From a bacterium (GTDB taxonomy: Bacteria; JAGOBX01), in contig JAKPEO010000089.1 of NCBI GenBank assembly GCA_029551925.1, forward strand, positions 1 to 36,215: a DNA stretch of 36,215 nt, written 5' to 3'. Below are positions 1-18,267 of the stretch, in pieces. Position numbers and translations under genes: made by a program. How positions within the stretch are numbered: the stretch's first letter is position 1; each line of letters starts with the position of its first letter. The notes under the pieces are model-generated. The model was given only the letters and a program-made list of their open reading frames with translations, did no database searches and was not told the origin of the DNA.

Positions 1-3000
1 TCGCTGCTTGTAAAATGATATTTTTCTATTATTCCATAAAAATCACTTGTTACTGGTCCGAAAGCCCAATATGCCGCGCCTAATACTTTATATTCTATTC
101 GATATTCGGTTATTAAAGTATCTGGATGGGTATTCCAACCAATAAATACACTCTTATCAAACTGCTGATTTATATAATTAATTTCAAACGAATATTGCTG
201 CTGCGATCCTTCTAAATAATATTCAAAAACATCGCTTATACTTAAAACATTATTATTTTCTTCAACCGCTTTAACCTTTAAATAATATAAACTATCACTT
301 ATTAAATTATCAATAATAACGAAACTATCAAAACAATCATACCATTCAACGTTGCTAAAATTATTATTTAACGATATTCCGACACTATATTTATATAAAT
401 TTTGCGCGAGATATGGCGTCCATTCTACGCGTATTGTATTATCGGAAATTTTAAATACCTCATTAATCTGAATATTCTGCTGACTGCCACCATCTAAAAC
501 TTGAATGTTTCTATATGCTTTATGTAAAAGCTGATTATTAGCATCAAACGAAGAAACAACAATATTATAATATGCTCCAGGAATTAAATTACTTAAAGTA
601 TATTCAGTAATATTCCCTACATTAATATTTGGCGAATTTGAAGTTATTTGAACTGTATCATAAAAAATCTTATAATACGCTACTTCGTAATCCACATCAT
701 CTTCTATATATGGATAAATATCTTCTGTCCAATTCAATGATACTTCACTCACTTCATTTGATACTGCGTTTAGCGTAAACCAATGAGCAAATCCTTCTGA
801 CGCTTGCACTGCAACTTCATTTGAAATGCTTTTATTTGCGCCAGTATAATCAACAGAAATTACTTTTACATAATACAATCGGCCTGGAACTAAATTTTTT
901 ATATTTATCCACATATTTACATCAGGCGTTAAATATTCTCCTTGTTTGTTTTGTAATGTTACACCTGGTGTTGTTGACCATATTACACGATATTTTACAA
1001 TACCATTATTAAAATCAGGATTTATTTTCAAGCCTATAGTACCTGCCAATGGACCAGGATGATACTCCTCTATACTAAATGGCGGAGGAGTAAAACTAGT
1101 TAATTTTGAATACGCAATCTGTTCTTGTGTTTCAAATAACATAGTCATATCTTCTGATACTGCCACTACGCCGATATCAAATTTCATGCCTGCTGGAATA
1201 CCAGTAAATTCATATCTATCTACTAATCCTAATCTCACACTAAATTCACGACGTTGAGTATCTGGCATATCTTCTTCACCAATATGAACAATATAATTTA
1301 CTATCCGCGAATCATTTTGATGGATTGTCTGCCATCTTACAAATAATGACCCATCAGTATTCCCTGGCCGCGCTTCTAATATCTCAAAATTTGTAATTTT
1401 TTGTAAAGTTGAAGTAGTGCTAACAGTTTGATTTTTAGATTCTGTTGCTGCTAATTTTACGCCATTTGATGAATATGCTTCTACTACTACGCTATATTGT
1501 CTGCTCGGCTCTAATTTTTCAATAAAATAACTATTGTTATACGGCGGATATAAAATTTTCTCGCCACTGTGAATATATTGAACTACATATGCAGGCGCTA
1601 ACGAACCAGAACCATCACTTAAATTCCATTTTACCTTGTAATATGCCGCGTTTGGATGTTCCGTCCATTCTACCCAAATGCCATCTTCTTCTGGCGAAAT
1701 AATAGTCCAAATTTTAAAATTATAAGGAACAGCATAATTATAAACGCTCGAAACTAATAATTCACTATTAGAAAATAACAATTTTACATTAAAATTATAT
1801 GTTTTTCCCGGATATACTGGAATTTCTGCAAAATTTACATTTGAAACTAATAGAGTTTGGATAGGATCAGAACCTTTTGTATATTCAACTCTATAAATAC
1901 CTAAATTAGGCGCAACTGGCTGAGACCAAGTCAATCTCACTTTATCGTCAAACATTAAATAAGTTGCATCCGTAATCGTTAATTGTCTTGACGCAGAAGT
2001 GAATAAAAATTCCTGCGTTTCTTTTAATAAATTTCCTGCTGTATCGTATGATTTTACTTTAAATCTATATTGTGCTGCAGGATAAATCGGTAACTCAAAA
2101 GTAGATACTAAACGATTCGTTATTCTTGAAGTTGACGCCAAATATGTCTGATTATTAATTGTATATGAATATTCAATAATATAATGGCCAAAATTTAACG
2201 CTATTTCCGGTTCCCATTCGATTGCTGCCATATTACCAACTTGTATTACTGATTTTATTACAAATTCATATTGTCTAAATTTATTAACCTTTCTGACATC
2301 TGAAATCTGACTTCTTCTACTAAATGCATCATAAGCAACAATTATAAAATTATAATCTTTTGTTTGTAAAAGTTTATCTAATACAGAGCCGTCTAACCTT
2401 ACTGTCATATCTGGCACTTCGTGATTTAATTTATCGCGCAAATTCCTGCGTTCTACTCTAAATTGATAATTATTAATTGTCGGAATCATCGGATCTTCTG
2501 CGCCATATATTTCAAATTCAAAGCTCGGTTTGAAATCAGTGCGTTTTGCACTTATTATTTCTTTACCAGCATTCGGATTAGGTAAATTTACCAATACTTC
2601 CCTAAATTCCGGCGCTGATTTAACATCGTTCAATGCTACTTCATTCACTTGATTTATAAACGCGCAATTTAATGGCGCTAATGTCTTATTCGCTATCTGC
2701 GCATTCTGGTCAAAATAAGTAATCTGCACATCTAAATTTACTGATGATAATTTTTCAGTTGAATATACCGCTACTCTAATCGGATTATCAACTGTTATTT
2801 CATTTACTTCCGGCTCAATTTTTATCAATGACGGTTTTATCTGCGGAATAATTTTTATCTTTTGTCTGCCTGCTTCAAATGCGCCGATTTTTGCAATAAC
2901 CCAAACATCAAGCAGTAAATCTTGTTCGCGCCATTCTAATCTTATTTTTTCGCCAACTGTATTAAATGTCCCATTTGTAATTATCGGTTTAAATTTTATT

Positions 3001-6000
3001 TCATCGCCGTCGCCTGCTAAATTATCTAATCTTATTATCTGTCTGCCTATATTATTATTTTGCGGAACAATTATCCTTGACATTTCAGATGAACCCTTAA
3101 ACTGCCATTTCAAGATATATTCATTCGCGCCGCGTAATGCATCCCAAGACACATTCACAATCCCAACGCCTTCATTTGTTACAGTCAACTTAAATAAATC
3201 CGGCGTAAGCACTACATTCCTAAAATCCGCAGGCATATTTAATGTCCCTACATATTTATAAATCGGTTCGATACCTGCTTCAATTACAGTTTCTACTATT
3301 TTTCGAGCACCCTCTAATATCGTAGCCGGTACTGGGGCACTTGTCTTCGTCAGCGCCACTGGCACTGTCTTATATAACACATTATTTACATCATAATATT
3401 TCAAAGATATATTAATCACATCCGGAATATTTTGGACGTCGCTTAATATGCCTGCATTTATAATTATTTCTTTACCCGGTTCTATTACAGCGCCATTTAT
3501 CGGCTGAACAATCGCCCCGAGAGAACTTGTAATTTCTATTGTTACTTTTCCTTTTTTCGCTTGCGCATCTATTAAATTACGCGCTGTATATATTATCGCA
3601 ACAGGCGGAAGCGGTATAATTTCACATTCCACGCTGCGCGGTGCTTGACGATATACGCCTTCGCTTAAAATATCAGCTTGTCTTGCAAGCGCTACCCTAT
3701 CAGTTCTATATGTCGCACCTTTTTCGTCAATATATCTTATAACCGCTGTCAATACTTCTGGCAACTGTGGCAGCGAACCGCTCAATATACCGGCATTTAA
3801 AATTATTTCTCTGCCACCAGGCACCATTTCAAATACGCGACCAACAGACGGACGCAATACCACAGCACCCGGCTCTGCTATTTCTACTACTATCTTTCCT
3901 TTTACAGCTTTGTCAGTCAATATTGATTTTGCAGCATATAATATCGTATTCTGTGGAAGCGCTAATGTATTTAAATCTATTACTTTTATTTGAGCCGCTA
4001 CTACTGCCTCTGGTAATTTTTCTGCTGATCTAGCTAATGTAACTTTTTCTGTTTTATAAATGTTACCATTAGCATCTATATATTTAATATTTACATTCAA
4101 TATTTCTGGCATTCCTGCTGATTCTATCACCGCAGCTTCAAGAGCTAATTCTTTATTTTCTTTTGACGCCTCAATCGTTTCATTATTCAACGGTTTTAAA
4201 ATACTCGCACCCTGCTCAACTACCGCTAAATTTATTTTCCCTGTTTTAACCGCTGATTCAATAACTAATTTTCCTTTATATAAAATCGCAAATTTCTGCT
4301 CTAATTTTACTTTTGTCTCTAATCTTCTTAAATTTGCAGACATTATCGCTGTCGCTAATGAAATCGGGATATCTTCTGCGCGCTTTAATTCTATTGTCCC
4401 TTGATGAGTAACTGCGCCAAAAGCATTTCTAAAAGTATATTTTACAGCAAGTCCTGCGATAAATTCTGGCTGCGGCGCCAATGATTTTGGATATGCAACG
4501 CCTTCTACTATCACAGAGCCATTTGGAAATACTTCTGCTGCATACAGTGGCATTAAACGACCATCTTCTGTCTGTAATTCCAATGTCAATACACCTTCAT
4601 TTGCATCTGCTGGAATTTTTAATTCAGAACGGAATTTTGCCGCTGGTACTGTAAAATATCTTGTAAAAAATGTAAAATCATTATATTTTATATCAAATAA
4701 AACAGGCAATTCAACTGGCGCTTCAAATATAAATGAACCATCTGGCCCTAACTGCAATCTCTGACCATTTGCTAAAACTGTAAAATTAGTAGTTATACTC
4801 TTTTGCTGTTTTACTATATGCGCTGGCTTAGCTAAATCTGCTAATTCTGCTTCAAATTTTGTAGGAATAATTTCACCTTCTGCTAACATACCTTTAATTC
4901 TATATTTTCCAGATGCTCTATCAATTACGGTTTCTACTATTCTCAATACCGGCGGTTTTACTTTAACTTCAAAAGTTCTTTCAAATGCACCATTATCAAA
5001 TATGCGTACTTGCTCGCCATTTATCTTTAATGAAGCAATACCTCTATCATTCGGTTTATTGTCTGTCGCTAACCCCTTAACAACTACTAAATTACCTTCT
5101 AATCTAACATCCCAAACTAATTCCGGAGCATTAACATCTGGAGGTAATTCTGCTTTCGCTATCTTTTCAGATAACAACCCAGCTTTATCTAATGCCTTGA
5201 CTTTCAATTCGACTATTTCCTTACCGCCGTCTACTTTAATCATATCTTTATTTATTGCTATTGTATATTTAAAAACTCCCCCTGTTGGCGGTAATGTCAT
5301 TGCGATTGGTTGACCATTAATAGTAATTTCCTGTAATGCAATATTATCTGTTGCGCGCACTTCTAATATCGCTCTACCATTTTCAATAACCGCGGATATA
5401 ACATCTACTACTGGCGCTAAGTTGTCTTGCAATGTCACTACTACTGTTGTCTTCTTTCCACTGCCGTCTTCTGCTTCAACCAAAGCTGACTGGAGTTTTT
5501 CGTCCATTACCAATATTTTTTCAAATATACCGCGAGCATCAAAATTCAAAAGTTCACCATTTATTCTTATCGCTTTCAATTCTATATCATCTTCGGCAAA
5601 TCCTTTGATTTTAACTGTATTTGCCGTATATTCCGGGGATGAAACTACCAATACTGGCGGCTTTATATCTTCTATTGCTTTTACCACCACTTGTACTTCA
5701 GATGATTTTTTTCCGTCTTTTGCAACTGCCTGTATTTTTAATTGCTTATCTTTTAATTCCTGTTTTTCTACGATCCTAAAAGAACCAGCATCATCGCTTG
5801 TCGCTCTTTTCACGCCATTTACTAAAATATCAGATGCGCCGTTATTTATAATACCTGATATTATAGCTTCTTTTTGTAAATATTTTATATCTCCTAATGT
5901 TATTTCTATTTTCTTTTCTATTTTTTTACCTTCTAACGCAGCTATCTGTTTATTAATAAAATCTATTAAATTTTGAACTTCTACAAATTTATCAGCGGCA

Positions 6001-7340
6001 AACGCCTCCTGAACCTTTTGCAAAACAATAAACAATTCATCAACCTTCAAACCTGCCTCTTTTTTGGTTTCTACCAGTTTTACTGTCTCTTTTATTCTTT
6101 CATCCAATCCTTCCGGCGCCTTTCTCCGCGCTAATGCCAATGCCTTACGCGCTTCTTTCAACAAAGATATAACTTCTACAAAATTTTTGCTTTGATGTGC
6201 GGCTAATGCGTTTTTAAATAGTATCTCCCCTTCGGTTACTATAAAGCCCGCTTTTCCTTTTTCTAATATTTCATTTGAGATTTCTTCTTCTTGTTTTTCT
6301 AAATCAACAAATTCTGATTTAACTGCCGCTGTTTTTAATTCTTGAATTATCTGTTTTAGTAAATCAACCGCTTCTTTATATTTCGCGGAATTATATAAAT
6401 CTTCTGCATCTTTTATTTTTAACATTGAATTTTCAATATCGAATCTTCCAAATTTTTCTTTAACCAAATTATCTATTTCTGCTTGCGCTTTTGAATATTC
6501 GCCGGCAAATTGATTCTCTGATTTTTTTGCGTTTTCTATTTCGTTTAAAAATTGAGCCGCTTCTTTTTCAAATTTAGCGAATTGTCTTGAAGCAAAAGAA
6601 TTTTCCGCTCTTTTTTTCAGACCTTCAAAACCAGTTAAAATATAACCGTCATTTCTTTTTTCTGTCCAAACTATATTTATTTTTTCTAATAAATCTGTAT
6701 ATTTTTTATCTATCGGCTTAAAAAAAGCATCGTCAACATCTTCAGGGCGATTTTCTCTGAATTCTACGCTGCCATCTGTATTTTTCATTAATGTATTTCC
6801 AGCGTCAACAGGATTGCCTTTTGAACCGCTTTCATCTGTTACAAACACATTACCTTCTGTCAATGTAAATTGCGATGGCTTTTCTTCACCCTGCGCACTA
6901 ATTATACCTTCGGTGCCGCGCACGCCGCAAACTGCGCTCGGAGTGGAAATTTTAAATGATGATGATTGATCTTTTAATTTGTCAACATTAAATTTTACGC
7001 CGCCAAAATTTACTTTAATATCTCGATTTTTGGCATTTGTTTTCTGGTTGGTTGAATAATCTTGAACAACTATTTCCGTATTTTCTCTCACAACAAAAGT
7101 TGTTTTTCCCGCATCCATTGTCAATTCTGCAATTGAATTCGTAAAAGTCCGCACCCTGCTCTGTTGATTCAATATCATTCCTTCTTTGCCGTTTTCCCAA
7201 TCAGACGCTGCATCTATTTTCACTCTGACCTTTCCAGTAATTTTAGATAACACAATGTTATCTGTTGCAAATATAAAATTTGCCATTAATGCAATTTGCA
7301 CTAAAATCAAAAATAAAATTTTTATTGTTTTTGTCTTCAT
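1..7340 (-). CDS. Giant exported FecR / Ig-like / fibronectin-III protein (C-terminus beyond left edge)
   Basis: An open frame of 2446 codons runs from ATG at 7340 to the left edge with no stop. The start has AAGGAG about 9 nt upstream. Seen in order: a signal peptide (residues 1-25, hydrophobic core ending FIFA); a FecR-like domain (about 27-185) with the family motif TPSAVCGVRGTEG; a charged, probably helical region (about 195-480); Ig-like beta repeats (about 485-800); four diverged repeats of about 115 residues (about 900-1350); and then at least eight FN3-like units of 85-110 residues, each with a V-x-W strand and a YxVxY-type strand, to the edge. FecR domains occur in iron-signalling sensors but also at the N-terminus of large envelope proteins in uncultivated phyla, where the function is unknown. 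I infer a secreted or surface-anchored structural or adhesion protein. No enzymatic domain was seen. The C-terminal anchor, if any, lies outside the window. Confidence 0.85.
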   Translation of the reverse strand, partial: MKTKTIKILFLILVQIALMANFIFATDNIVLSKITGKVRVKIDAASDWENGKEGMILNQQSRVRTFTNSIAELTMDAGKTTFVVRENTEIVVQDYSTNQKTNAKNRDIKVNFGGVKFNVDKLKDQSSSFKISTPSAVCGVRGTEGIISAQGEEKPSQFTLTEGNVFVTDESGSKGNPVDAGNTLMKNTDGSVEFRENRPEDVDDAFFKPIDKKYTDLLEKINIVWTEKRNDGYILTGFEGLKKRAENSFASRQFAKFEKEAAQFLNEIENAKKSENQFAGEYSKAQAEIDNLVKEKFGRFDIENSMLKIKDAEDLYNSAKYKEAVDLLKQIIQELKTAAVKSEFVDLEKQEEEISNEILEKGKAGFIVTEGEILFKNALAAHQSKNFVEVISLLKEARKALALARRKAPEGLDERIKETVKLVETKKEAGLKVDELFIVLQKVQEAFAADKFVEVQNLIDFINKQIAALEGKKIEKKIEITLGDIKYLQKEAIISGIINNGASDILVNGVKRATSDDAGSFRIVEKQELKDKQLKIQAVAKDGKKSSEVQVVVKAIEDIKPPVLVVSSPEYTANTVKIKGFAEDDIELKAIRINGELLNFDARGIFEKILVMDEKLQSALVEAEDGSGKKTTVVVTLQDNLAPVVDVISAVIENGRAILEVRATDNIALQEITINGQPIAMTLPPTGGVFKYTIAINKDMIKVDGGKEIVELKVKALDKAGLLSEKIAKAELPPDVNAPELVWDVRLEGNLVVVKGLATDNKPNDRGIASLKINGEQVRIFDNGAFERTFEVKVKPPVLRIVETVIDRASGKYRIKGMLAEGEIIPTKFEAELADLAKPAHIVKQQKSITTNFTVLANGQRLQLGPDGSFIFEAPVELPVLFDIKYNDFTFFTRYFTVPAAKFRSELKIPADANEGVLTLELQTEDGRLMPLYAAEVFPNGSVIVEGVAYPKSLAPQPEFIAGLAVKYTFRNAFGAVTHQGTIELKRAEDIPISLATAIMSANLRRLETKVKLEQKFAILYKGKLVIESAVKTGKINLAVVEQGASILKPLNNETIEASKENKELALEAAVIESAGMPEILNVNIKYIDANGNIYKTEKVTLARSAEKLPEAVVAAQIKVIDLNTLALPQNTILYAAKSILTDKAVKGKIVVEIAEPGAVVLRPSVGRVFEMVPGGREIILNAGILSGSLPQLPEVLTAVIRYIDEKGATYRTDRVALARQADILSEGVYRQAPRSVECEIIPLPPVAIIYTARNLIDAQAKKGKVTIEITSSLGAIVQPINGAVIEPGKEIIINAGILSDVQNIPDVINISLKYYDVNNVLYKTVPVALTKTSAPVPATILEGARKIVETVIEAGIEPIYKYVGTLNMPADFRNVVLTPDLFKLTVTNEGVGIVNVSWDALRGANEYILKWQFKGSSEMSRIIVPQNNNIGRQIIRLDNLAGDGDEIKFKPIITNGTFNTVGEKIRLEWREQDLLLDVWVIAKIGAFEAGRQKIKIIPQIKPSLIKIEPEVNEITVDNPIRVAVYSTEKLSSVNLDVQITYFDQNAQIANKTLAPLNCAFINQVNEVALNDVKSAPEFREVLVNLPNPNAGKEIISAKRTDFKPSFEFEIYGAEDPMIPTINNYQFRVERRNLRDKLNHEVPDMTVRLDGSVLDKLLQTKDYNFIIVAYDAFSRRSQISDVRKVNKFRQYEFVIKSVIQVGNMAAIEWEPEIALNFGHYIIEYSYTINNQTYLASTSRITNRLVSTFELPIYPAAQYRFKVKSYDTAGNLLKETQEFLFTSASRQLTITDATYLMFDDKVRLTWSQPVAPNLGIYRVEYTKGSDPIQTLLVSNVNFAEIPVYPGKTYNFNVKLLFSNSELLVSSVYNYAVPYNFKIWTIISPEEDGIWVEWTEHPNAAYYKVKWNLSDGSGSLAPAYVVQYIHSGEKILYPPYNNSYFIEKLEPSRQYSVVVEAYSSNGVKLAATESKNQTVSTTSTLQKITNFEILEARPGNTDGSLFVRWQTIHQNDSRIVNYIVHIGEEDMPDTQRREFSVRLGLVDRYEFTGIPAGMKFDIGVVAVSEDMTMLFETQEQIAYSKLTSFTPPPFSIEEYHPGPLAGTIGLKINPDFNNGIVKYRVIWSTTPGVTLQNKQGEYLTPDVNMWINIKNLVPGRLYYVKVISVDYTGANKSISNEVAVQASEGFAHWFTLNAVSNEVSEVSLNWTEDIYPYIEDDVDYEVAYYKIFYDTVQITSNSPNINVGNITEYTLSNLIPGAYYNIVVSSFDANNQLLHKAYRNIQVLDGGSQQNIQINEVFKISDNTIRVEWTPYLAQNLYKYSVGISLNNNFSNVEWYDCFDSFVIIDNLISDSLYYLKVKAVEENNNVLSISDVFEYYLEGSQQQYSFEINYINQQFDKSVFIGWNTHPDTLITEYRIEYKVLGAAYWAFGPVTSDFYGIIEKYHFTSS
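3270..4640 (-). repeat. Four tandem ~115-residue protein repeats inside the giant protein
   Basis: The encoded segment contains four diverged copies of one module, at roughly 4295-4640, 3945-4295, 3600-3945 and 3270-3600. Each copy has a strand such as KYIDANGNIYKT, RYIDEKGATYRT or KYYDVNNVLYKT, then VxLAR or similar, a helix-like linker and ILYxAK or IIYTAR. The copy nearest the N-terminus is the most diverged. The match is at protein level and the DNA copies are not near-identical, which suggests old duplication. I could not assign the module to a named family. Confidence 0.6.
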
Positions 7341-7866
7341 AACAAAACTCCTTAATTCCATAAAATTTTTAAAGATATTATTATAGTAAAGCATTTTTTT
7401 TTCCATATTTTATTTTTTTTTTATTTTTTTTCATTTTCAAAATACTATATATATTTTTTTTAATGTTTTTTGATAGTTTTAAATTTTTTTTTATTAATTG
7501 TCTATAATTTTATACACTGTTTTTTTTATAAATTTTAGAATTGAAAAATATTTAGTAAATTTTTAACAGACCGTTTTCAATATTATGGTTTGATTTGTTT
7601 TTTTAATAAATATAATTTTTTGCGTGAACATTCGGCTATTGATAATTTATGCCCTGAACAAGTTTATTATGGTAACAAGTAGTTGATTAATTTTAGGTTT
7701 AAAAAAGGAAAAGTCGCTTGATTTTTTTTGTCTTGACTTTTCAGGACATTATACACTATAAAATGCGGTTTTCCCCCCTTTTTTCAATACTTTCTTTTTA
7801 CTATTTTTTTAACCTTTTTGGGAACTCTGTTTAAAAATAAATCAGCGCTGCGATAATTTCTTATTA
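7341..7866. other. Non-coding AT-rich gap between symporter and giant gene
   Basis: This is the only stretch over 300 bases without a gene. It is very A/T-rich with many T runs on the plus strand. It holds the ribosome binding site of the giant gene (AAGGAG on the minus strand, near 7349-7354) and a terminator-like hairpin for the upstream minus-strand operon (7701-7742). No convincing ORF or RNA gene was seen, and I could not fix a promoter for the giant gene. Confidence 0.6.
7701..7742 (-). terminator. Intrinsic terminator after the symporter operon
   Basis: On the minus strand GAAAAGTC (7742-7735) pairs perfectly with GACTTTTC (7715-7708) across a 19-nt loop, followed by C and six T. It lies 125 nt beyond the symporter stop and before the giant gene, as expected for the end of the yajC-to-symporter transcript. 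The stem is short and AT-rich and the loop long, so the strength is uncertain. Confidence 0.5.
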
Positions 7867-9567: not shown

Positions 9568-10776
9568 TCATCTTCGTTGTAAAGATCTTATAAAATCATT
9601 TATCGGCAGAAATATAGACATTGCAATTAAACAAACTATCAAACCTAAAATTACTAAAATCAATGGCTCGATAATAGCTAAGGTTTCTGATACTGTGAAT
9701 TCTACTTCGCGCGAATAAAATGTATTGACTTTTTTTAGCATTTCAGAAAGCGTACCCGACCGTTCGCCGACATAAATCAAATGCAGCGCTAAATCAGAAA
9801 ATTGCCCGCTTTTTTCTAATGCTTTATTCAGTGGCTCGCCGTTTTCAATAAAAGGTATGACAACTAAAATTTTTTGCGAGATATAGCGGTTCGGCACAGC
9901 GTTTGCCGCAATTTTAACAGAATCAACAACGGCATTACCACTGTCTAATAGTATTTGCAGAGTATTCGCAAAAATAGAAATATTTACTTTTGTTATAAGC
10001 GCGCCTATAAACGGAATTTTAATTTTTAGATAATCAAAATATTCAGGTTTGTTAATTGTTTTAAAAATTATATAAGTTGCAAAAACCGCTATGAAGAAAA
10101 TTGCCAAAATCGGTAGCGCGAAATTTTGTAAAATATTAGTAAAAAACACTAAAATATTTACAGTTGCAGAAGTCACGCCGAGCGTCTTGAAGATATTGAC
10201 AAAACGCGGCAGCACATAAATTAATAAAAAAATTATTCCGAAAATAGCTACAGAAAAAAGGACAATCGGATAAGTAAGTATAGTTTTTAATTTGTTTTTC
10301 AATACTTCGCGTCTGTCGATAAATTCCGCTAAACTATTCAAAACTTCCGGTAATTTACCACTTCGTTCGCCAGATTTTATCGCGGCAATATAAGCGCGCG
10401 AGAAAATACGCGGATAATTTTCAATTGAATCAGATAATATTTTGCCATTTTCTATATCATTTGCAATATTATGTATTATCTTTTTAAATGTAATGTCTGT
10501 CATTTGTTTTGAGATAAGTTTTAACGCGTCAAGTATAATAGCGCCGGACCCGAGCATTATCGCTAATTGCCAAGTAAACAGCATAAGATTTTTTGACGAT
10601 ACTACTAATTCAGCCCCGAACGATTGTGTTTTTTCTTTGCTAATATCTATTACTTTGCTGACATACAAATTATTTGCATTAGCATATTCCGCAATTTTAT
10701 TTTGATTTTCTACTGTTAATATTTCTTCTATTTTTACGCCGGCATTATTAATGAAAATAACCCTGTATTTTTTCAT
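9568..10776 (-). CDS. pilC: Type IV pilus / type II secretion inner-membrane platform protein
   Basis: A 402-residue PilC/GspF-family protein, the usual length. It has two homologous T2SSF domains, the first around 65-190 (FTWQLAIMLGSG ... ESYP-like segment ENYPRIF ... GERSGKLPEVL) and the second around 270-390 (ANTLQILLDSG ... GERSGTLSEMLKKV). Membrane segments follow each, at about 170-195, 215-240 and 370-392. In assembled machines the protein sits in the inner membrane at the base and couples the extension ATPase to pilin polymerisation. The ATG follows the stop of the ATPase gene with no gap, so the two are translationally coupled. The family does not by itself distinguish a pilus from a type II secretion system, and no pilin, secretin or prepilin peptidase gene is in the window. 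Confidence 0.92.
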   Translation of the reverse strand: MKKYRVIFINNAGVKIEEILTVENQNKIAEYANANNLYVSKVIDISKEKTQSFGAELVVSSKNLMLFTWQLAIMLGSGAIILDALKLISKQMTDITFKKIIHNIANDIENGKILSDSIENYPRIFSRAYIAAIKSGERSGKLPEVLNSLAEFIDRREVLKNKLKTILTYPIVLFSVAIFGIIFLLIYVLPRFVNIFKTLGVTSATVNILVFFTNILQNFALPILAIFFIAVFATYIIFKTINKPEYFDYLKIKIPFIGALITKVNISIFANTLQILLDSGNAVVDSVKIAANAVPNRYISQKILVVIPFIENGEPLNKALEKSGQFSDLALHLIYVGERSGTLSEMLKKVNTFYSREVEFTVSETLAIIEPLILVILGLIVCLIAMSIFLPINDFIRSLQRR

Positions 10777-12462
10777 TTATTCTACACCGTGTAAAACATT
10801 CAGCGCTTCGTCTAAACTTGTAATTCCGCGAATAATTTTATCAAACGCATCTTGTTTTAAGGTAAGCATTCCGGCATTAAGCGCAGCTTGTCTAATATTT
10901 TCAACTGATGCTTTATTAATGACTAATTTTTTAATTTCATCATTCATCTCTAAAATTTCAAATATTCCTGTTCTTCCTTTGTAGCCGGTATATTTACAGT
11001 TTTTGCAGCCGCGACTTGTATAAAAAATTAATTCTTCATTTTTCGCATATTTTTCAAATTCTTTGATAAATTCGCGCGGCGGCACAAATGTCTCGCGGCA
11101 GTCATTACACAGCATTCGCACGAGCCGCTGCGCTATGACCGCTTGTAAAGTCGAGGCAATTAAATACGGCTCAATTCCCATATTAATTAAACGTGTTAAT
11201 GAATCCGGCGCATTATTAGTATGCAAAGTGCTTAATACAAAATGACCGGTTAACGCTGACCGTATCGCTATTTCAGCGGTCTCTATATCGCGTATTTCGC
11301 CGACCATCATTATATCTGGATCCTGCCGCAAAATCGAGCGCAAGCCAGTAGCAAAAGTCAAACCGACACGCGGGTTAACTTCAATTTGAGAAATATTATT
11401 CAATTGATATTCTACTGGGTCTTCAATTGTAACAATATTTTTTTTAATAGAATCTAATTGCTGTATCGCCGCGTATAATGTCGTTGTTTTGCCGCTGCCA
11501 GTAGGTCCTGTAACTAATAAAATACCGGTGTTTTTTTTCAATAACTCTATTACGCGGTTATATGCTTCTTCATTTAATCCTAAATTTTCTAAACTACTGA
11601 GCATTTGCGTTTTGTCAAATAAACGCATTACTATCTTTTCGCCAAATATTGTAGGCGAAGTTGACACGCGTATATCAATATCTCTTTCGTTCACCTTTAA
11701 TTTTATTCGGCCGTCTTGCGGAATGCGTTTTTCAGATATATCAAGCCGCGCTAAAACTTTTATTCTTGAAATTATCGAAGATGTAAATTGCCGCGGCGGC
11801 GATTGAATTTCATACAATTGCCCGTCTATTCTGTATCTAATGCGCAATCTATTATGCTGCGGCTCTATATGAATGTCTGATGCGCGGTCAACTATTGCTT
11901 GCTCAATAATTAAATTCACAAGTTTTATTATCGGCGCTTCTTCAGCGGTTGTTTGTAAATCAATATATTCTTCTTCTTCAAATTCTGCTGTTATTTCTGA
12001 TTTCAAAGCATTGACTAATTCAGTCATCGAATCTTCAATGCCGAATAATTGACTTATCACGCCGCGTAATTTCGATTGAGATACCAGCACCGGCGAAATA
12101 TTGAGTCCTGTAATCTGTTTGAGTTCATCTATCAAATATAAATCAGTTGGATCAACCATTCCGACAGTGAGCATATTCTGAATTTTAAAAATAGGAATTA
12201 CATTATTAGTTCTAATAATTTCTTCTGGTATCAAATTTACAATATTTCGGTCAATCAGCGATACATTCAAATTTATATAAGGAATATTTATTCTTCGCGA
12301 AATTAGTCTGATTAATTCTTCTTCTTTGATTATATTTTCATCTTCTAAAATTTCAAAAATGTATTTCTGGCTACGGTCGTTCAGCGTTTTTAATTCAGAA
12401 TATTTAGCGTCGTCAATTACATTTTCTTCAAGCAAAATGTCTAATATTGTTAAATCATTCAT
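10777..12462 (-). CDS. pilB: Type IV pilus / type II secretion assembly ATPase
   Basis: A 561-residue cytoplasmic hexameric ATPase of the PilB/GspE family. An N-terminal T2SSE_N-type domain (about 1-150) precedes the motor domain. Seen motifs: Walker A GPTGSGKT at 319-326, the Asp box with IEDPVEYQ at about 347-353, Walker B in DPDIMMVGEIRD near 381-392, and the His box LSTLHTN at about 410-416. Two CxxC pairs (C452/C455 and C486/C489) form the zinc-binding element typical of extension ATPases and absent from PilT. The start ATG is one base beyond the stop of the response-regulator gene and the stop abuts pilC, so the three genes form one translational unit. All catalytic motifs look intact. 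Confidence 0.95.
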   Translation of the reverse strand: MNDLTILDILLEENVIDDAKYSELKTLNDRSQKYIFEILEDENIIKEEELIRLISRRINIPYINLNVSLIDRNIVNLIPEEIIRTNNVIPIFKIQNMLTVGMVDPTDLYLIDELKQITGLNISPVLVSQSKLRGVISQLFGIEDSMTELVNALKSEITAEFEEEEYIDLQTTAEEAPIIKLVNLIIEQAIVDRASDIHIEPQHNRLRIRYRIDGQLYEIQSPPRQFTSSIISRIKVLARLDISEKRIPQDGRIKLKVNERDIDIRVSTSPTIFGEKIVMRLFDKTQMLSSLENLGLNEEAYNRVIELLKKNTGILLVTGPTGSGKTTTLYAAIQQLDSIKKNIVTIEDPVEYQLNNISQIEVNPRVGLTFATGLRSILRQDPDIMMVGEIRDIETAEIAIRSALTGHFVLSTLHTNNAPDSLTRLINMGIEPYLIASTLQAVIAQRLVRMLCNDCRETFVPPREFIKEFEKYAKNEELIFYTSRGCKNCKYTGYKGRTGIFEILEMNDEIKKLVINKASVENIRQAALNAGMLTLKQDAFDKIIRGITSLDEALNVLHGVE

Positions 12463-12463
12463 A

Positions 12464-13330
12464 TTACTGCCATAATTCCTTTATTTCTTTTAATTGTTTT
12501 ATGTTGTCTGTAACATTCGATACAGTTGATTTTAATTCTGTATTTATTCCAGCAATAATATCGTCTAATGATTCAAAATTAATTTCAAAAATATATGAAT
12601 TATTATTTTTTGAAAATTTAGAAGTTTTATTTTTTAAAATTTCGATAATTTGATTGTCTAATTTTTCTAATATCTCAGGTTCTTCTATTTCCATTTTCAT
12701 TATAATTTTAGTTGAAGATTCTGCGAAATACGCGAATTTTAGATAAAATAATTTATCAGGATTAGCGTTTAAAATTAAGTCAGTCAATTCGCTAAATAAA
12801 TCTTCTATATATTGCAAAGTTTTTTTTGAAAGCGCATACATTTCAGTCAATTCAATAACTATTTCTCTTATTTTAGTTAAGCCGTCAAGATTATTTGGTA
12901 ATTTAAAGAGCACTGTGTTATTTTGACCGTATCTAATTTTCGGCGCGGGCTTTTCCGCGCGTTCAAGCAGCGCCTTCACGCGATTTATGACATTTGATAT
13001 GTCGAATGGTTTATAAATATATTCGTCTGCGCCGAGCGTAAAACCGGTTAATTTTGATTTTATCTCGCGTTTTGCTGTCAGCATTAAAACAGGAATTTTT
13101 TTTAGTTGCTCGTCTAATTTTATTTCGCGGCATAATTGATAGCCGTTTAATTTTGGCATCATTATATCTGTTATTATTAAATCAGGCTTCGGCTTTGTTG
13201 ACCGCAAATAATCAAGAGCATTTTCACCGTTTTCACATAATATTGTTTGCATTTTTTCTTTTTTTATACGCATATCCAATAACATTCTAATCGGCTTATC
13301 GTCTTCGGCAATCAAAATTAGTTTTTCCAT
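12464..13330 (-). CDS. Response regulator with C-terminal degenerate ATPase-like domain
   Basis: A 288-residue protein. The receiver domain (1-120) has the acidic pocket E9-D10-D11, phospho-acceptor D55 in ITDIMMPK, T85 and K107 in YKPF, so it should be phosphorylatable. The rest is not a known DNA-binding output. Residues about 145-245 (IREIVIELTEMYALSKK ... FSELTDLILNAN) resemble the helix and N-box of RsbW-type HATPase_c_2 domains, but the glycine boxes are not evident, so an inactive ATPase-like fold is only an inference. A short helical tail follows. It lies between the microcompartment gene and pilB, with a 1-nt gap to pilB, which suggests control of pilus or secretion activity by protein-protein contact. 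No Shine-Dalgarno was seen before the ATG. No histidine kinase is in the window. Confidence 0.82.
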   Translation of the reverse strand: MEKLILIAEDDKPIRMLLDMRIKKEKMQTILCENGENALDYLRSTKPKPDLIITDIMMPKLNGYQLCREIKLDEQLKKIPVLMLTAKREIKSKLTGFTLGADEYIYKPFDISNVINRVKALLERAEKPAPKIRYGQNNTVLFKLPNNLDGLTKIREIVIELTEMYALSKKTLQYIEDLFSELTDLILNANPDKLFYLKFAYFAESSTKIIMKMEIEEPEILEKLDNQIIEILKNKTSKFSKNNNSYIFEINFESLDDIIAGINTELKSTVSNVTDNIKQLKEIKELWQ

Positions 13331-13363
13331 AAAAAAAGCAAAATAATTTTAGAATAAAAATTT

Positions 13364-13918
13364 TTAAATAATCTCGCGATAAATTTCTTTGCGCGGACCG
13401 GGGATAATCACAGCATTTACTAATAATCCCTTCTCTTTTATAAATTCCTGAGCCGCTTCAACCGCCGCTTTGACATCCGCTACTGTCCCGGTCAGCGTGA
13501 AAAACGCTTTACCGCCTAATGCCATTGCTAATCGAACTTCAATTAACTGGACTTGTGCGGCTTTTACAGCGGCATCAGCACCTTCAATTAATGCGGCAAC
13601 TGAAAAACTCTCTACTATTCCGAGCGCATCAGGATTATCGATTACATTCATTCCGCGTATCGCTGGAAATACTGATTCGTGGACATTTGGGATAATCAAT
13701 GAATCAACAAGCGCAAAATCGGCAAATCTTCTACCAGCTTCAACGCTCGCTTTAACTGCGCCAACTTCGCCGCAAACTAATGTTATATGCTTGCCAGAAC
13801 ATATTGTGCGCGCAATTAATAATTCTACTTCCGCAGCTTTCAGCATTTCATCAGCTACAAGATAACCTTGCGCAATACTTGAAACTTCTATTAATCCAAT
13901 AGCATTTTGCATATCCAT
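13364..13918 (-). CDS. pduT: PduT-like tandem-BMC microcompartment shell protein with probable Fe-S site
   Basis: 184 residues with two BMC domains (about 5-88 and 96-180), the BMC-T architecture that forms pseudohexameric trimers in bacterial microcompartment shells. The sequence follows Salmonella PduT closely in layout (AIGLIE...ADEMLKAA...TICSGK; second half LGIVES...AALIEGAD...GEKG-like KEKGLL). C40 in TICSGK aligns with PduT C38, which with its trimer mates holds a 4Fe-4S cluster in the pore, so this subunit probably carries electrons across a shell. ATG at 13918 is chosen because GGAAAG ends 5 nt before it; the GTG 3 nt upstream overlaps that site. It sits 16 nt after pduS, the PduS-PduT pairing known from pdu loci. 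No other shell gene is present, so the rest of the compartment must be encoded elsewhere or be absent. Confidence 0.88.
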   Translation of the reverse strand: MDMQNAIGLIEVSSIAQGYLVADEMLKAAEVELLIARTICSGKHITLVCGEVGAVKASVEAGRRFADFALVDSLIIPNVHESVFPAIRGMNVIDNPDALGIVESFSVAALIEGADAAVKAAQVQLIEVRLAMALGGKAFFTLTGTVADVKAAVEAAQEFIKEKGLLVNAVIIPGPRKEIYREII

Positions 13919-13934
13919 CACTTTCCTTAAAAAT

Positions 13935-15269
13935 TTATTTCTTTATATGAATAAATTTATCAGTAATATTAACTACCTTTCCATTGATGCTTGAATGTAT
14001 CGCAGCGCCTAATTTGTCATCTGGCGTTTTGCCAATCATCTGCCCTTGTTTTACTGCATCGCCGATTTTTACAAGCGGCTGGCAAGCTGCGCCGATCTGC
14101 TGCGCTAATAAAATAAAGATTTCGTTCGGCTGAAATTTTATTTCTTCAAAATGCGCTGATACATCATAATCAGATAATTTCAATCTTTCGATTAATCGTT
14201 TTGTCGGCACTTTGCGAAATTCGCGCATCGGATGCGCTTTTAATTCCGCGCCTTCCGGCAATTTATATCTAATTCCTTGTTTTGCTAATTCGCGCTTTGA
14301 TATGCCGCAAGTTTCGCCGGGATACAATAATTCCGGACATGAAAATAATGTGCATAATTTACATTCAACGCATAATAACGAATATTTAGAATTTACCGTA
14401 TATTGTCCGCCTGTTAAACCCAATGACCGCATAACAGCGTGCGGTCTGACATCATGCCCTACTAAATAACGCGGACAAAATTCTGTGCAATACGAACACT
14501 GGTCGCACGCGCTTTTGCCGATTCTTTGAGTTGACTGCTGCGGCAATGTTTTTCTGATAATCAGCGGATGCTGCTTTGATAAAACTATATAACCGGCAGA
14601 TGTTTTGCTGACCGGAGTATTTTCGTCAAATACCACGCTGCCCATCATAGGACCGCCGTCAATAAATACCGGATCGCTAACTGTCACGCCGCCGGCGAAC
14701 GACAGTATATCTTTGATTCTTACACCAACCGGAACTTTTATAGTAATCGGCTTCTTAACTTCGCCGGTAATAGTCAAATATTTATAAATTACAGCTTCAT
14801 TATTTTTTACAGCGCGATGAATATTTATAAATGTCTCGCTATTTGATACTACGCACCCGACTTGTAATGGTATTCCAGCAGGCGGCACAATACGCTTTGT
14901 CACTTCATACACTAACACTACTTCGTCGCCAGACGGATAAACATCAGGTATAATCTCTACGCGGATACCTTTATATTTTTTTGAAATTTCTTGTAATTTC
15001 GGTATCGCTTCTTTATTTTTTGCTTTTAATGCTATTATGCCGGTTTTCGCGCCTGTTAATTCCATTGCGATATTTAAACCGCTTACCATTTCTTCCGGAT
15101 ATAAACGCATTACTTCTTTATCTTTATACAATAATGGTTCGCACTCTGCGCCATTAATTATTATTGTGTCAACGTTAGCGTTTAATTTCATATAAGTCGG
15201 AAAACCTGCGCCGCCCGCGCCTATTATTCCAGCATTTCTAATGATTTCTATTATTTTTTTCTTATCCAT
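13935..15269 (-). CDS. pduS: PduS-like flavin / 4Fe-4S oxidoreductase (RnfC-related)
   Basis: 444 residues. An N-terminal glycine-rich GAGGAGFPT (17-25) begins the Complex1_51K-like flavin/NADH fold. An SLBB-like region follows (about 165-225). Two 4Fe-4S sites are seen: C255, C258, C261, C265 and C300, C303, C306, C311. The C-terminus (about 385-444) is a barrel-sandwich domain (VKIGDAVKQGQMIGK). With the sandwich domain at the C-terminus rather than the N-terminus, this matches PduS rather than RnfC. In Salmonella PduS is a cobalamin reductase binding PduT. Here no cobalamin enzyme is nearby, and RnfD and RnfG are encoded just across the divergent promoter, so it might instead take the place of RnfC (inference). 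AAGAAGG precedes the ATG by about 9 nt. It is the second gene of the yajC operon. Confidence 0.88.
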   Translation of the reverse strand: MDKKKIIEIIRNAGIIGAGGAGFPTYMKLNANVDTIIINGAECEPLLYKDKEVMRLYPEEMVSGLNIAMELTGAKTGIIALKAKNKEAIPKLQEISKKYKGIRVEIIPDVYPSGDEVVLVYEVTKRIVPPAGIPLQVGCVVSNSETFINIHRAVKNNEAVIYKYLTITGEVKKPITIKVPVGVRIKDILSFAGGVTVSDPVFIDGGPMMGSVVFDENTPVSKTSAGYIVLSKQHPLIIRKTLPQQSTQRIGKSACDQCSYCTEFCPRYLVGHDVRPHAVMRSLGLTGGQYTVNSKYSLLCVECKLCTLFSCPELLYPGETCGISKRELAKQGIRYKLPEGAELKAHPMREFRKVPTKRLIERLKLSDYDVSAHFEEIKFQPNEIFILLAQQIGAACQPLVKIGDAVKQGQMIGKTPDDKLGAAIHSSINGKVVNITDKFIHIKK

Positions 15270-15294
15270 AATAAAAACCTTCTTATATAAAAAA

Positions 15295-15651
15295 TTATTT
15301 TTCGTCTTTTGCCAAAGGAGTATTGTCTTTAATTACACTCACAACTGATTTCAACATTTTCAATTTTACATTATTATCTACTTTTACATATACAACATCA
15401 TTTTCGATTTTGGCAATTTCGCCATAAATACCGCCGGATGTTATAACTTTATCGCCGACTTTTAAATTTTTCAACATTTCTTCGCGTTTTTTACGCTCTT
15501 TACGCTGCGGCATAAATACCATTAAATAAAAAACCGCAATAATAATTATAAAAGGGAATAACATTTCAAATACGCTCGGCTGGCGCGCCGCAGCTTGCTG
15601 CGCCGGCGCTTGACCAGCGGCATATACCACGCTTGCAAATAAATTCGTCAT
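15295..15651 (-). CDS. yajC: Preprotein translocase accessory subunit YajC
   Basis: 118 residues, the usual length for YajC. A short Ala/Gln-rich N-terminus precedes one membrane helix (about 27-46, LFPFIIIIAVFYLMVFMPQ) and then the family signature PQRKERKKREEMLKNLKVGDKV with the VTSGGIYGEI-like segment. YajC joins SecDF to stimulate Sec translocation. SecD and SecF usually follow but are absent here; the next gene is pduS, 25 nt downstream. It is the first gene of the minus-strand operon, about 32 nt downstream of a predicted start site from TTGACA-N17-TAAAAT, with GGAG ahead of the ATG. Confidence 0.93.
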   Translation of the reverse strand: MTNLFASVVYAAGQAPAQQAAARQPSVFEMLFPFIIIIAVFYLMVFMPQRKERKKREEMLKNLKVGDKVITSGGIYGEIAKIENDVVYVKVDNNVKLKMLKSVVSVIKDNTPLAKDEK

Positions 15652-15689
15652 TTTAAATTATACTCCATAAAATAAATTTTAAAAAATAT

Positions 15690-15718
15690 ATTTTATCATA
15701 AATTTATAATCTTGTCAA
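15690..15718 (-). promoter_or_regulatory. Promoter of the yajC-pduST-pil operon
   Basis: On the minus strand, TTGACA (15718-15713), a 17-base spacer and TAAAAT (15695-15690) make a near-consensus sigma70-type promoter. Transcription should start near 15683, about 32 nt before yajC. Confidence 0.75.
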
Positions 15719-15740
15719 TTTATAAAATAAAAATTGACAA
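15712..15740. promoter_or_regulatory. Inverted repeat covering both -35 boxes of the divergent promoters
   Basis: TTGTCAATTT (15712-15721) and AAATTGACAA (15731-15740) are perfect 10-base inverted repeats separated by 9 bases. Each arm contains the -35 box of one promoter. It may be a shared operator, or simply a mirror-image promoter pair. Confidence 0.6.
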
Positions 15741-15762
15741 TTCATTTTTTTGATACTAAAAT
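15734..15762 (+). promoter_or_regulatory. Promoter of the porGD-rnfDG operon
   Basis: TTGACA (15734-15739), 17 bases, TAAAAT (15757-15762). The predicted start site near 15769 leaves only about 4 bases before the porG ATG at 15773, so the message is nearly leaderless. The TTG at 15734 is in frame with porG but is the -35 box and not a start codon. Confidence 0.75.
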
Positions 15763-15772
15763 TCCAAAGAAT

Positions 15773-16366
15773 ATGGATACTAAAAATTTAGTCGAACTAA
15801 TTTTTATAGGACGCGGCGGGCAGGGAATAGTAACAGCCGCGCAATTAGCGGGCGCCGCAGCTTTCAAAACTGGAATAAAAGATGTTAATATCGCTCCTTT
15901 TTTCGGAGCTGAACGTCGCGGCGCGCCTGTTGAAGCATATCTGCGGCTCGCAAATCAAAAAATAAATATCTATTCGAATATCGAACAAGCGGATATTTTT
16001 ATTTTATTTGATGATTCGCTGCTTAATAATATAAGTCAAAGACGAGTAAAGCATAATCAAACAAAATTATTAATTAATTCCGCTGATGCGGAGATATATA
16101 AAAAATTGGAATATTATAAAGAATTTTCAGAAATCGCAATTATTAATGCTACAAATATCGCTAAATCTATAAATCTATATGTCGGCGGCGCTTTGATTAT
16201 AAACACCGCGCTAATTGGCGCATTAGCGAAATTTACTGATTTGTATGATTCATCGGCAATTGAAAAAACTTTTATAGAGACATTCGGTCAAAAAAATTCT
16301 CAAAAAAATATTGAAGCTGCGAAAATTTCATTTAACGAACTTAAAATTATAAAAATTACGGAATAA
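15773..16366 (+). CDS. porG: 2-oxoacid:ferredoxin oxidoreductase, gamma subunit
   Basis: 197 residues from the ATG at 15773, matching the family length of about 180-200. The N-terminal GRGGQGIVTAAQLAG motif is the family signature, followed by FFGAERRGAPVEAYLR. The gamma subunit is part of pyruvate- or ketoisovalerate-type oxidoreductases that oxidise 2-oxoacids to acyl-CoA with reduction of ferredoxin. Delta follows after 4 bases, but the catalytic alpha and beta (TPP-binding) subunits are not in the window. The substrate cannot be read from gamma. The start is fixed by the promoter lying immediately upstream and by the family N-terminus. No Shine-Dalgarno is evident. Confidence 0.88.
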   Translation: MDTKNLVELIFIGRGGQGIVTAAQLAGAAAFKTGIKDVNIAPFFGAERRGAPVEAYLRLANQKINIYSNIEQADIFILFDDSLLNNISQRRVKHNQTKLLINSADAEIYKKLEYYKEFSEIAIINATNIAKSINLYVGGALIINTALIGALAKFTDLYDSSAIEKTFIETFGQKNSQKNIEAAKISFNELKIIKITE

Positions 16367-16370
16367 TAAA

Positions 16371-16646
16371 ATGAAAAAAGATGTAGATAAAATATTGGCT
16401 ATTAGCAAACCGTCAATAGGCGAAGCTGGCTTGACCGGCGGCTGGCGTATAGAAAAACCCGAACTCGATAAAACTAAATGTATAGCCGCTGTGAAAAATA
16501 AAATCGTATGTCAATTATGCTGGGTATATTGTCCGGAAGCGGCTATAAAACGCGGCGCGCCGCCGGAAATAAATTATGACTATTGCAAGGGCTGCGGCAT
16601 CTGCGCAGAAGAATGCCCGAATAAAGCAATAAAAATGATAGAATAA
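16371..16646 (+). CDS. porD: 2-oxoacid:ferredoxin oxidoreductase, delta (2x4Fe-4S ferredoxin) subunit
   Basis: 91 residues. A short N-terminal segment typical of PorD (GGWRIEKPELDKTKC) leads to two ferredoxin-type clusters: C43 region with CQLCWVYCPE, and CKGCGICAEECPN. The delta subunit passes electrons from the TPP/Fe-S core to external ferredoxin. It is translated directly after porG and followed 28 bases later by rnfD. Without alpha and beta alongside, either those subunits are encoded elsewhere or gamma/delta has been recruited for another electron-transfer role (inference). Confidence 0.9.
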   Translation: MKKDVDKILAISKPSIGEAGLTGGWRIEKPELDKTKCIAAVKNKIVCQLCWVYCPEAAIKRGAPPEINYDYCKGCGICAEECPNKAIKMIE

Positions 16647-16674
16647 ATTTTTTTATAGGGGATTACGCGCTATT

Positions 16675-17670
16675 ATGTTTGAAGTAACATCTTCTCCACA
16701 TATACAAAAACACGAAACAGTAAGATGCGTAATGCGCGATGTTTTGCTCGCATTAATGCCGGCGGCATTTGTCGCTGTATTAGTTTTTGGATTGCGGGCA
16801 TTATATACAATGCTGCTGACTACCGCGTTTTGCATAATTTTTGAATATATTTTTAATCATTTAATTTTGAAAAAGAAAACTATAAATGATTTATCAGCGG
16901 CAGTGACTGGTTTGTTATTAGCAATGAATCTTCCGTCGAATGCGCCGTGGTGGATTATGGCAATTGGCGCATTTGTAGCGATTGTAATTGCGAAAATATC
17001 ATTTGGCGGATTAGGCAATAATCCTTTTAACCCCGCGTTAGTCGGCAGAGTCGTGTTATTAATATCCTGGCCTTCTATAATGACTACTTGGCAAAAGCCG
17101 CAAATAATTTTGTCAATAAAAGAATTATTTTCAAATTTTGATGTTGTTACAGCTGCTACGCCTTTATCTATTTTGCAAGAGCGCGGTGTAACAGAATTAA
17201 TGAAAACCGACCATTTATATGCAAAATTATTTTTTGGATATTGCGGCGGCAGTTTAGGCGAAATATCGGCATTTGCTTTGATTATCGGCGGAATATATTT
17301 ATTTATGCGCGGACATATAACTTGGCATATACCATTGACATTTATTGGCTCTGTTTTTTTGATTGGACTAATATTTCATATTTCCGATCCTGCGCGATAC
17401 GCTGATCCGATTTTTCATATTTTATCTGGCGGCGTGATGCTAGGCGCTATTTTTATGGCTACTGATATGGTCACTAGTCCATTAACGAATAAAGGTATGA
17501 TAATATTTGGTATCGGCTGCGGAATAATTACAATGATTATCAGATTATTTGGCGCTTATCCAGAAGGCGTGTCTTTTTCTATTTTAATAATGAACGCATT
17601 TACTCCGCTGATTGATAAATTAACAGCGCCGCAGCGTTACGGCTTTACCAAAAAAATAGGAGGAAAATAA
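16675..17670 (+). CDS. rnfD: Electron-transport complex subunit RnfD
   Basis: 331 residues, polytopic (about ten membrane segments), the usual length for RnfD/NqrB-type proteins. Family features seen: NLPSNAPWW, GGLGNNPFNPALVGR, DVVTAATPL with T162 as the likely covalent FMN attachment residue, MATDMVTSPLTNKG, and YPEGVSFSILIMNAFTPLID near the end. In Rnf the subunit carries electrons through the inner membrane in ferredoxin:NAD oxidoreduction coupled to Na+ or H+ movement. It lies between porD and rnfG. RnfC, E, A and B are not encoded here. Confidence 0.93.
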   Translation: MFEVTSSPHIQKHETVRCVMRDVLLALMPAAFVAVLVFGLRALYTMLLTTAFCIIFEYIFNHLILKKKTINDLSAAVTGLLLAMNLPSNAPWWIMAIGAFVAIVIAKISFGGLGNNPFNPALVGRVVLLISWPSIMTTWQKPQIILSIKELFSNFDVVTAATPLSILQERGVTELMKTDHLYAKLFFGYCGGSLGEISAFALIIGGIYLFMRGHITWHIPLTFIGSVFLIGLIFHISDPARYADPIFHILSGGVMLGAIFMATDMVTSPLTNKGMIIFGIGCGIITMIIRLFGAYPEGVSFSILIMNAFTPLIDKLTAPQRYGFTKKIGGK

Positions 17671-18267
17671 ATGAAATCAATAATCACATTATTATTAATA
17701 TGCTTAATTTCAGCGATTTCATTAACATATATTAATCAACTTACGGCAAAACAGCGTTCAGAAAATCAAAATAAAAAATTGCAAGAAGCGAAGAAAAATG
17801 TGCTGTCAGATGAAATAAAAAATAAAATGGCAAGTATAAGCGAAGCAATTGAAATTGAAAATGTCAAGGTTTATAAAGTATTAGACGCGCAGGGCGGCAA
17901 ACTTGCAATAATCGCGGAATTTAGCGGACAGGGATTTGCAGGCGATATTAAATTATTAGCTGCTATTGATAATGATTATAAAGTATTAGGACTAAAACCA
18001 TTATCGCACAGCGAGACGCCCGGGTTAGGCGCAAAAATCGAAGAAGTGAATTCGAGTATCGCTCAAAAAATAAAACAAACTAATAAATTAGTGGACGAAA
18101 AAAAACCTTGGTTTTGCGAACAATTTAAAGGATTAGGTATTGAAAAATTAAAATTAAAAAAAGAAGGCGGAGAAATTGACGCTATCACAGCTTCGACTAT
18201 TACCTCGCGCGCTGTGACTAATGCAGTATCTAAAACAATTGAAGTCATAAAATCAAAAGGACTATAA
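17671..18267 (+). CDS. rnfG: Electron-transport complex subunit RnfG (FMN-binding)
   Basis: 198 residues. One N-terminal membrane anchor (about 3-22) is followed by the periplasmic FMN-binding domain. SHSETPGLGAKI (112-123) and DAITASTITS (170-179) match RnfG/NqrC. T176 is the probable phosphoester FMN attachment site; the usual SGAT is TAST here. Its start directly follows the rnfD stop, with a strong AGGAGG inside the rnfD end, so the two are coupled. After rnfG the operon goes to queF instead of rnfE/A/B. Confidence 0.92.
   Translation: MKSIITLLLICLISAISLTYINQLTAKQRSENQNKKLQEAKKNVLSDEIKNKMASISEAIEIENVKVYKVLDAQGGKLAIIAEFSGQGFAGDIKLLAAIDNDYKVLGLKPLSHSETPGLGAKIEEVNSSIAQKIKQTNKLVDEKKPWFCEQFKGLGIEKLKLKKEGGEIDAITASTITSRAVTNAVSKTIEVIKSKGL

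Follow-up and report, generated by a model that had tools for sequence, protein, structure and literature searches.

What does a pduS-pduT gene pair do on a contig that carries no other microcompartment gene, and does it work together with the electron-transfer genes that diverge from it? We addressed this question for a window of 36,215 nt, which is one whole contig (C92, JAKPEO010000089.1) of a bacterial genome, here called G000 (GCA_029551925.1; 2.96 Mb, 131 contigs, 86% complete). A first-pass annotation of this DNA had proposed that PduS and PduT, together with the divergent porG, porD, rnfD and rnfG, form one electron route between a microcompartment shell, ferredoxin and the membrane, in which PduS docks to RnfD/G instead of RnfC. 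Our analysis points to a different role. The pduS-pduT pair (pduST) is probably a satellite locus for the redox port of a sugar phosphate utilisation (SPU)-type (deoxyribose-phosphate) microcompartment encoded on other contigs, and a functional tie to the adjacent porGD-rnfDG operon is improbable.

PduS and PduT carry the predicted ligands of a redox pair

By residue, the domains of PduS are Complex1_51K (10-152), SLBB (165-210), Fer4_17 (254-313) and RnfC_N (380-438). Eight cluster cysteines, arranged in two four-cysteine motifs, were invariant in 94/94 PduS homologues, and the glycine-rich loop GxGGxGFP for flavin mononucleotide (FMN) and NADH was nearly invariant. These features bear out, as a prediction, the flavin and two 4Fe-4S clusters that the first-pass annotation had assigned to PduS. 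The closest named PduS was that of UBP16_UBA6123 (53%).

PduS had also been called a homologue of RnfC, which holds for the shared NADH/FMN/4Fe-4S core but not for the architecture. In BLAST against G000's own RnfC, residues 118-412 of RnfC corresponded to residues 1-312 of PduS and residues 28-83 to residues 381-437, indicating a permutation; PduS has neither the N-terminal arm of RnfC nor an RnfC_N barrel ahead of the FMN domain. In a 47-row tree, every RnfC, including that of G000, was split from PduS with 100/100 support. An AlphaFold model of PduS built from 45 sequences reached a pLDDT of 93.7 (an earlier 5-sequence model was poor, with a pLDDT of 68), and its best solved matches were RnfC chains, with Z scores of 26-31 over residues 1-333. 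PduS also passed the cut-off of TIGR01945 (rnfC) with 259.7 against 245.95, a subfamily score that is blind to the permutation. On these sequence comparisons, PduS is a permuted RnfC relative with a clade of its own.

PduT aligned over its length with the solved PduT structures (PDB 3pac, 3n79 and 3vcd; E 1e-44 to 1e-49). Its pore cysteine lies in a CxGK motif and was invariant in 88/88 homologues; it is C40 from the start used in the first-pass annotation, C38 in the usual PduT numbering and C41 in a further numbering. With two bacterial microcompartment (BMC) domains and this invariant residue, the earlier description of PduT as a shell subunit with a cluster cysteine is upheld.

The pduS-pduT pair is widespread and mostly free-standing

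We compared 80 named pduS loci that represent about 15 phyla, reading their gene content by tblastn (calling of open reading frames (ORFs) lost genes in GC-rich loci). pduT was present in 75 of the 80 and lay within 400 bases of pduS in 71. No other BMC gene was found in 67/80 loci, and where at least 5 kb of flank was available on both sides, the pair was isolated in 34 of 39. A search for relatives gave 15 pduS genomes, with pduT adjacent in 14 and the pair isolated in 9. BMC domains were detected in all of the other pduS genomes tested (8/8), and several pduS genomes (e.g., G054, G030, G069 and G013) have single-domain BMC-H genes located away from pduST. Taken together, as judged by gene content, the pduS-pduT pair is real and widespread.

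An all-against-all comparison of flanking ORFs from 95 loci revealed no recurrent electron-acceptor gene beside pduST; the recurrent neighbours were limited to BMC genes, genes for ABC and for signalling proteins, and genes specific to Ignavibacteria. In G001, the only same-family genome compared, pduS (76%) and pduT (83%) are followed by pilB and pilC. The order pduT then pilB/pilC is thus found in both family genomes (window positions 9568-13921; L054), with a response regulator in between in G000, and this pil neighbourhood was the only conserved pduST surroundings found in the family. In a Myxococcales locus (L122:5115-11890), pduST occurs twice within 7 kb: one copy sits in a DeoC/BMC-P/aldehyde dehydrogenase locus (34%/41% identity), and the other is a divergent pair resembling that of the window (46%/53%).

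An SPU-like gene set lies on other contigs of the genome

Within the window, PF00936 was found only in pduT. The first-pass statement that the pair comes without any other microcompartment gene is therefore true of the contig but false of the genome, in which a BMC locus and scattered shell genes lie elsewhere. BMC-H, BMC-P and signature enzymes, which that annotation had listed as worth seeking, were found on contigs C68, C36 and C91.

Contig C68 encodes PduL, BMC-H, BMC-P, an acylating aldehyde dehydrogenase (PRK15398, 638.7 bits), a 106-aa protein, RpiB and a LUD-like protein, the last labelled from sequence reading alone, with no NCBIfam match at the cut-off used. Contig C36 carries one BMC-P and an N-terminally extended DeoC (TIGR00126, 304 bits), contig C91 adds one BMC-P, making three in G000, and contig C2 encodes one protein with three BMC domains. 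DeoC, RpiB, aldehyde dehydrogenase and PduL are markers of the SPU type (PMC4207490, PMC8217296), and this gene set is present in G000, divided between C36 (DeoC and BMC-P) and C68 (RpiB, aldehyde dehydrogenase, PduL and shell genes). No second copy of pduS or pduT was found elsewhere in G000. The window thus holds an incomplete contiguous shell set, in a genome with another BMC locus (C68), which is how Axen 2014 defined a satellite locus.

No alcohol dehydrogenase was found beside the BMC genes of G000, and no genome-wide search for one was made. SPU loci without alcohol dehydrogenase have been reported by Axen et al. (PMC4207490), and the presence of PduS in SPU loci has been left unexplained (PMC4207490, PMC8217296).

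Two of these proteins have unusual architectures. In the DeoC of C36 (L020:10434-11804), the aldolase occupies residues 239-447. The long part N-terminal to it probably includes an encapsulation peptide, and one stretch weakly resembles a flavoprotein (PF02441, below cut-off). The triple-BMC protein of C2 (291 aa, L018:9830-10705) is 75% conserved in G001 (L161:2802-3686), and three genomes from a different family (L172, L173 and L174) encode relatives that match it over the full length (30-38%). As we read the list of building blocks in the 2021 BMC catalogue, it names only single and double PF00936 proteins (PMC8217296).

A putative redox port in the microcompartment shell

In the Pdu system, PduS binds PduT, contains FMN and two clusters and catalyses NADH oxidation; electron transfer across the shell by PduS and PduT has already been proposed (PMC6325248, PMC8667426). 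In G000, DeoC would make acetaldehyde inside the shell, where the aldehyde dehydrogenase would convert it to acetyl-CoA with formation of NADH. PduT would hold PduS on the lumen face, so that PduS could oxidise lumen NADH through FMN and then its two 4Fe-4S clusters, and the 4Fe-4S cluster in the pore of PduT would then carry the electrons out to an acceptor in the cytosol. The invariance of the cofactor ligands and the conservation of the gene pair both agree with such passage across the shell, as does the literature. This part of the previously proposed electron route is supported, whereas its extension to a joint function with PorGD-RnfDG is not.

Several points weigh against the satellite redox port. 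PduT scored 132.8 bits against the NCBI equivalog TIGR02526 and missed its cut-off of 250.3, so it should be regarded as a PduT-type protein, not a close orthologue. The family comparison covers one genome, in which only 23 bases of the contig remain upstream of pduS, with the yajC side outside the comparison. DeoC is not on C68 with the other SPU genes, and the SPU assignment comes from pooled gene content. Further, the BMC locus of C68 reaches the contig end in an 86% complete genome, and an alcohol dehydrogenase could be hidden.

We also considered that electrons may run inward, with the pair bringing cytosolic reducing power to the lumen, for example for aldehyde reduction or to hold a redox enzyme of the lumen in its reduced state. 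The direction of electron flow is not readable from sequence, and Axen et al. suggest that PduS may turn aldehyde to alcohol where alcohol dehydrogenase is missing (PMC4207490). However, PduS draws electrons from NADH, the published potential of the PduT cluster (+99 mV) favours outflow (PMC6325248), and no lumen acceptor enzyme was recognised, which makes inward flow rather unlikely. The isolation of most pduST copies from other BMC genes might instead mark a leftover or a general-purpose redox unit with no microcompartment tie; this is improbable, given that PduT has the fold of a shell protein and an invariant pore cysteine, that BMC domains occur in every pduS genome tested, and that the strong cross-phylum conservation speaks against decay. 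A B12-recycling role of PduS, serving a dehydratase inside the compartment as it does in Salmonella Pdu, would agree with the reduction of cobalamin by Citrobacter and Salmonella PduS (PMC6325248, PMC4207490), but we hold it to be highly improbable here: EutB was absent from the 15 pduS genomes (the E. coli control was positive), the SPU aldolase is independent of B12, and B12 diol dehydratase gave no match in the same genomes, in a weak search whose controls were silent.

The outward-directed redox port can tentatively be generalised. pduS-pduT could be a cross-phylum, mostly free-standing cassette for many B12-independent microcompartments, exporting NADH electrons through the shell so that no internal alcohol dehydrogenase would be needed; here it would be part of a scattered SPU system with a triple-BMC-domain tile. 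The cassette bears on how NADH is re-oxidised in a sealed microcompartment without alcohol dehydrogenase. That pduST stands alone and conserved in about 15 phyla, and that the 15 genomes tested gave no B12 enzyme, favours electron export over the textbook cobalamin reductase and makes this role testable with two genes. The interest of pduST, which we consider moderate, lies in the breadth of the free-standing cassette.

The adjacent porGD-rnfDG operon and the divergent promoter region

The features of the locus are collected in Table 1. For pduT, pduS, porG, porD, rnfD and rnfG, family profile matches confirmed the genes and coordinates of the first-pass annotation, and the four plus-strand genes matched their own families at E 1e-25 to 1e-113. 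On the minus strand, yajC, pduS and pduT follow in operon-like order, with gaps of 25 bases (yajC/pduS) and 13 bases (pduS/pduT), and the run continues downstream of pduT with the response regulator, pilB and pilC. On the plus strand, porG, porD, rnfD and rnfG are separated by 4, 28 and 0 bases, and queF starts 3 bases past rnfG in the same run. The length of the divergent gap had been given exactly, but pduS does not flank it: the flanking genes are porG and yajC, which had been omitted. Elsewhere in the window, a very long ORF (3-7406, minus strand; at least 2468 aa) is cut by the contig end.

Table 1. Features of the pduS-pduT locus and the divergent porGD-rnfDG operon in the window
Feature	Coordinates	Strand	Evidence
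pduT, BMC-T shell protein of PduT type	13364..13921	-	PF00936 twice, E 6e-44; pore Cys
pduS, NADH dehydrogenase flavoprotein with two predicted 4Fe-4S clusters	13935..15269	-	Complex1_51K, SLBB, Fer4_17, C-terminal RnfC_N
yajC, at the head of the yajC-pduS-pduT run	15295..15651	-	TIGR00739, 88.2 bits, above cut-off
Divergent promoter region, 121 bases, two back-to-back sigma-70-like sites	15652..15772	.	Motif match
porG, gamma subunit of 2-oxoacid:ferredoxin oxidoreductase (POR), ATG at 15773	15773..16366	+	TIGR02175, 144.1 bits, above cut-off
porD, delta (ferredoxin-like) subunit	16371..16646	+	TIGR02179, 89 bits, above cut-off
rnfD	16675..17670	+	TIGR01946, 379.4 bits, above cut-off
rnfG	17671..18267	+	TIGR01947, 130 bits, above cut-off

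Each strand of the divergent gap carries TTGACA-17-TAAAAT (11/12 each), at 15718-15690 (minus) and 15734-15762 (plus). Lying back to back, these were the two top-scoring sigma-70-like sites of a 6.6-kb region. The total number of promoter-like sites in that region was about that of shuffled sequence (33 vs 29.8) and not in excess, so only the quality and position of the pair count in its favour. Between 15690 and 15762, the TTGACA boxes stand in opposed orientation within an inverted repeat (TTGTCAATTT...AAATTGACAA), which is a possible shared operator.

All six Rnf subunits are encoded in G000, with RnfA and RnfE on C72, RnfB on C71, RnfC on C3, and RnfD and RnfG in the window. The protein on C3 is a genuine RnfC in which the N-terminal arm is present, and RnfD/G therefore has its usual partner. 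PorA and PorB are encoded on C37. A second copy of rnfD or rnfG was not seen in the G000 loci read, and no genome-wide search for either was made. The porGD-rnfDG operon would serve its own complexes, POR with PorAB and Rnf with the subunits on C3, C71 and C72, and all that it would have in common with pduST is the promoter region between them.

G001 has rnfC-rnfD-rnfG in one cluster (L069) and porG-porD-porA-porB in another (L159). Because the two sets are separate there, the porGD-rnfDG junction in G000 is most likely a local rearrangement of two clusters, although a single relative leaves uncertain which way the change went. The Rnf and POR genes of G000 are scattered over C3, C71, C72, C37 and the window; its sister genome keeps the rnfCDG and porGDAB clusters. 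Where operons are scattered in this way, a divergent neighbour is a poor guide to function.

A single route through both halves of the locus would account for the divergent promoters within 121 bases, the core that PduS shares with RnfC, and the absence of rnfC from the porGD-rnfDG cluster. However, no match to rnf, por, yajC or pilB was found near pduS in the 80 named loci, and the arrangement was not found in relatives either. In the solved Rnf complex, the N-terminal arm of RnfD is buried in RnfC (PMC9588780), whereas PduS is armless and has its RnfC_N domain at the opposite end. The soluble domain of RnfG is extracellular (PMC9588780), so contact with a cytoplasmic PduS is unlikely. The +99 mV of PduT, a value from the published protein and not from the G000 homologue, is far too high for ferredoxin reduction (PMC6325248). 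The first-pass annotation had itself named lack of conservation, or a complete Rnf set and a complete separate BMC locus elsewhere with copies of their own, as observations that would speak against it. The arrangement was indeed not conserved, and G000 does have an RnfC and a separate BMC locus elsewhere; second copies of pduS and pduT, and of rnfD and rnfG in the loci read, were not found. A dedicated PduS-RnfD/G link is unlikely, and the joint module as a whole is very unlikely.

Comparison with known systems

Like RnfC of the Rnf complex, PduS combines an NADH/FMN domain, SLBB, two predicted 4Fe-4S clusters and a barrel-sandwich domain. It differs in carrying the barrel-sandwich domain at the C-terminus, in missing the N-terminal arm and in its separate clade, and G000 has its own RnfC besides PduS.

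With the Pdu microcompartment of Citrobacter and Salmonella, the locus shares an identical PduS domain order, a BMC-T protein with a pore cysteine, and adjacency of the two genes. Unlike that system, pduST of G000 lies outside any pdu operon, its PduT falls under the equivalog cut-off, and no B12 diol dehydratase match was obtained (in the search with silent controls). Glycyl-radical microcompartments (GRM) are likewise B12-independent, and a PduS/PduT pair has been proposed as their shell electron conduit; no glycyl radical enzyme was found beside the BMC genes of G000, and no genome-wide search for one was made.

Compared with the SPU metabolosome (Axen 2014, Sutter 2021), the G000 genes are split among several contigs, and pduST forms a satellite of its own beside yajC and pil genes. 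In gene content the two are alike, since G000 has the DeoC aldolase, RpiB, aldehyde dehydrogenase, PduL and several BMC-P, and PduS was earlier noted in the SPU loci of Atribacteria.

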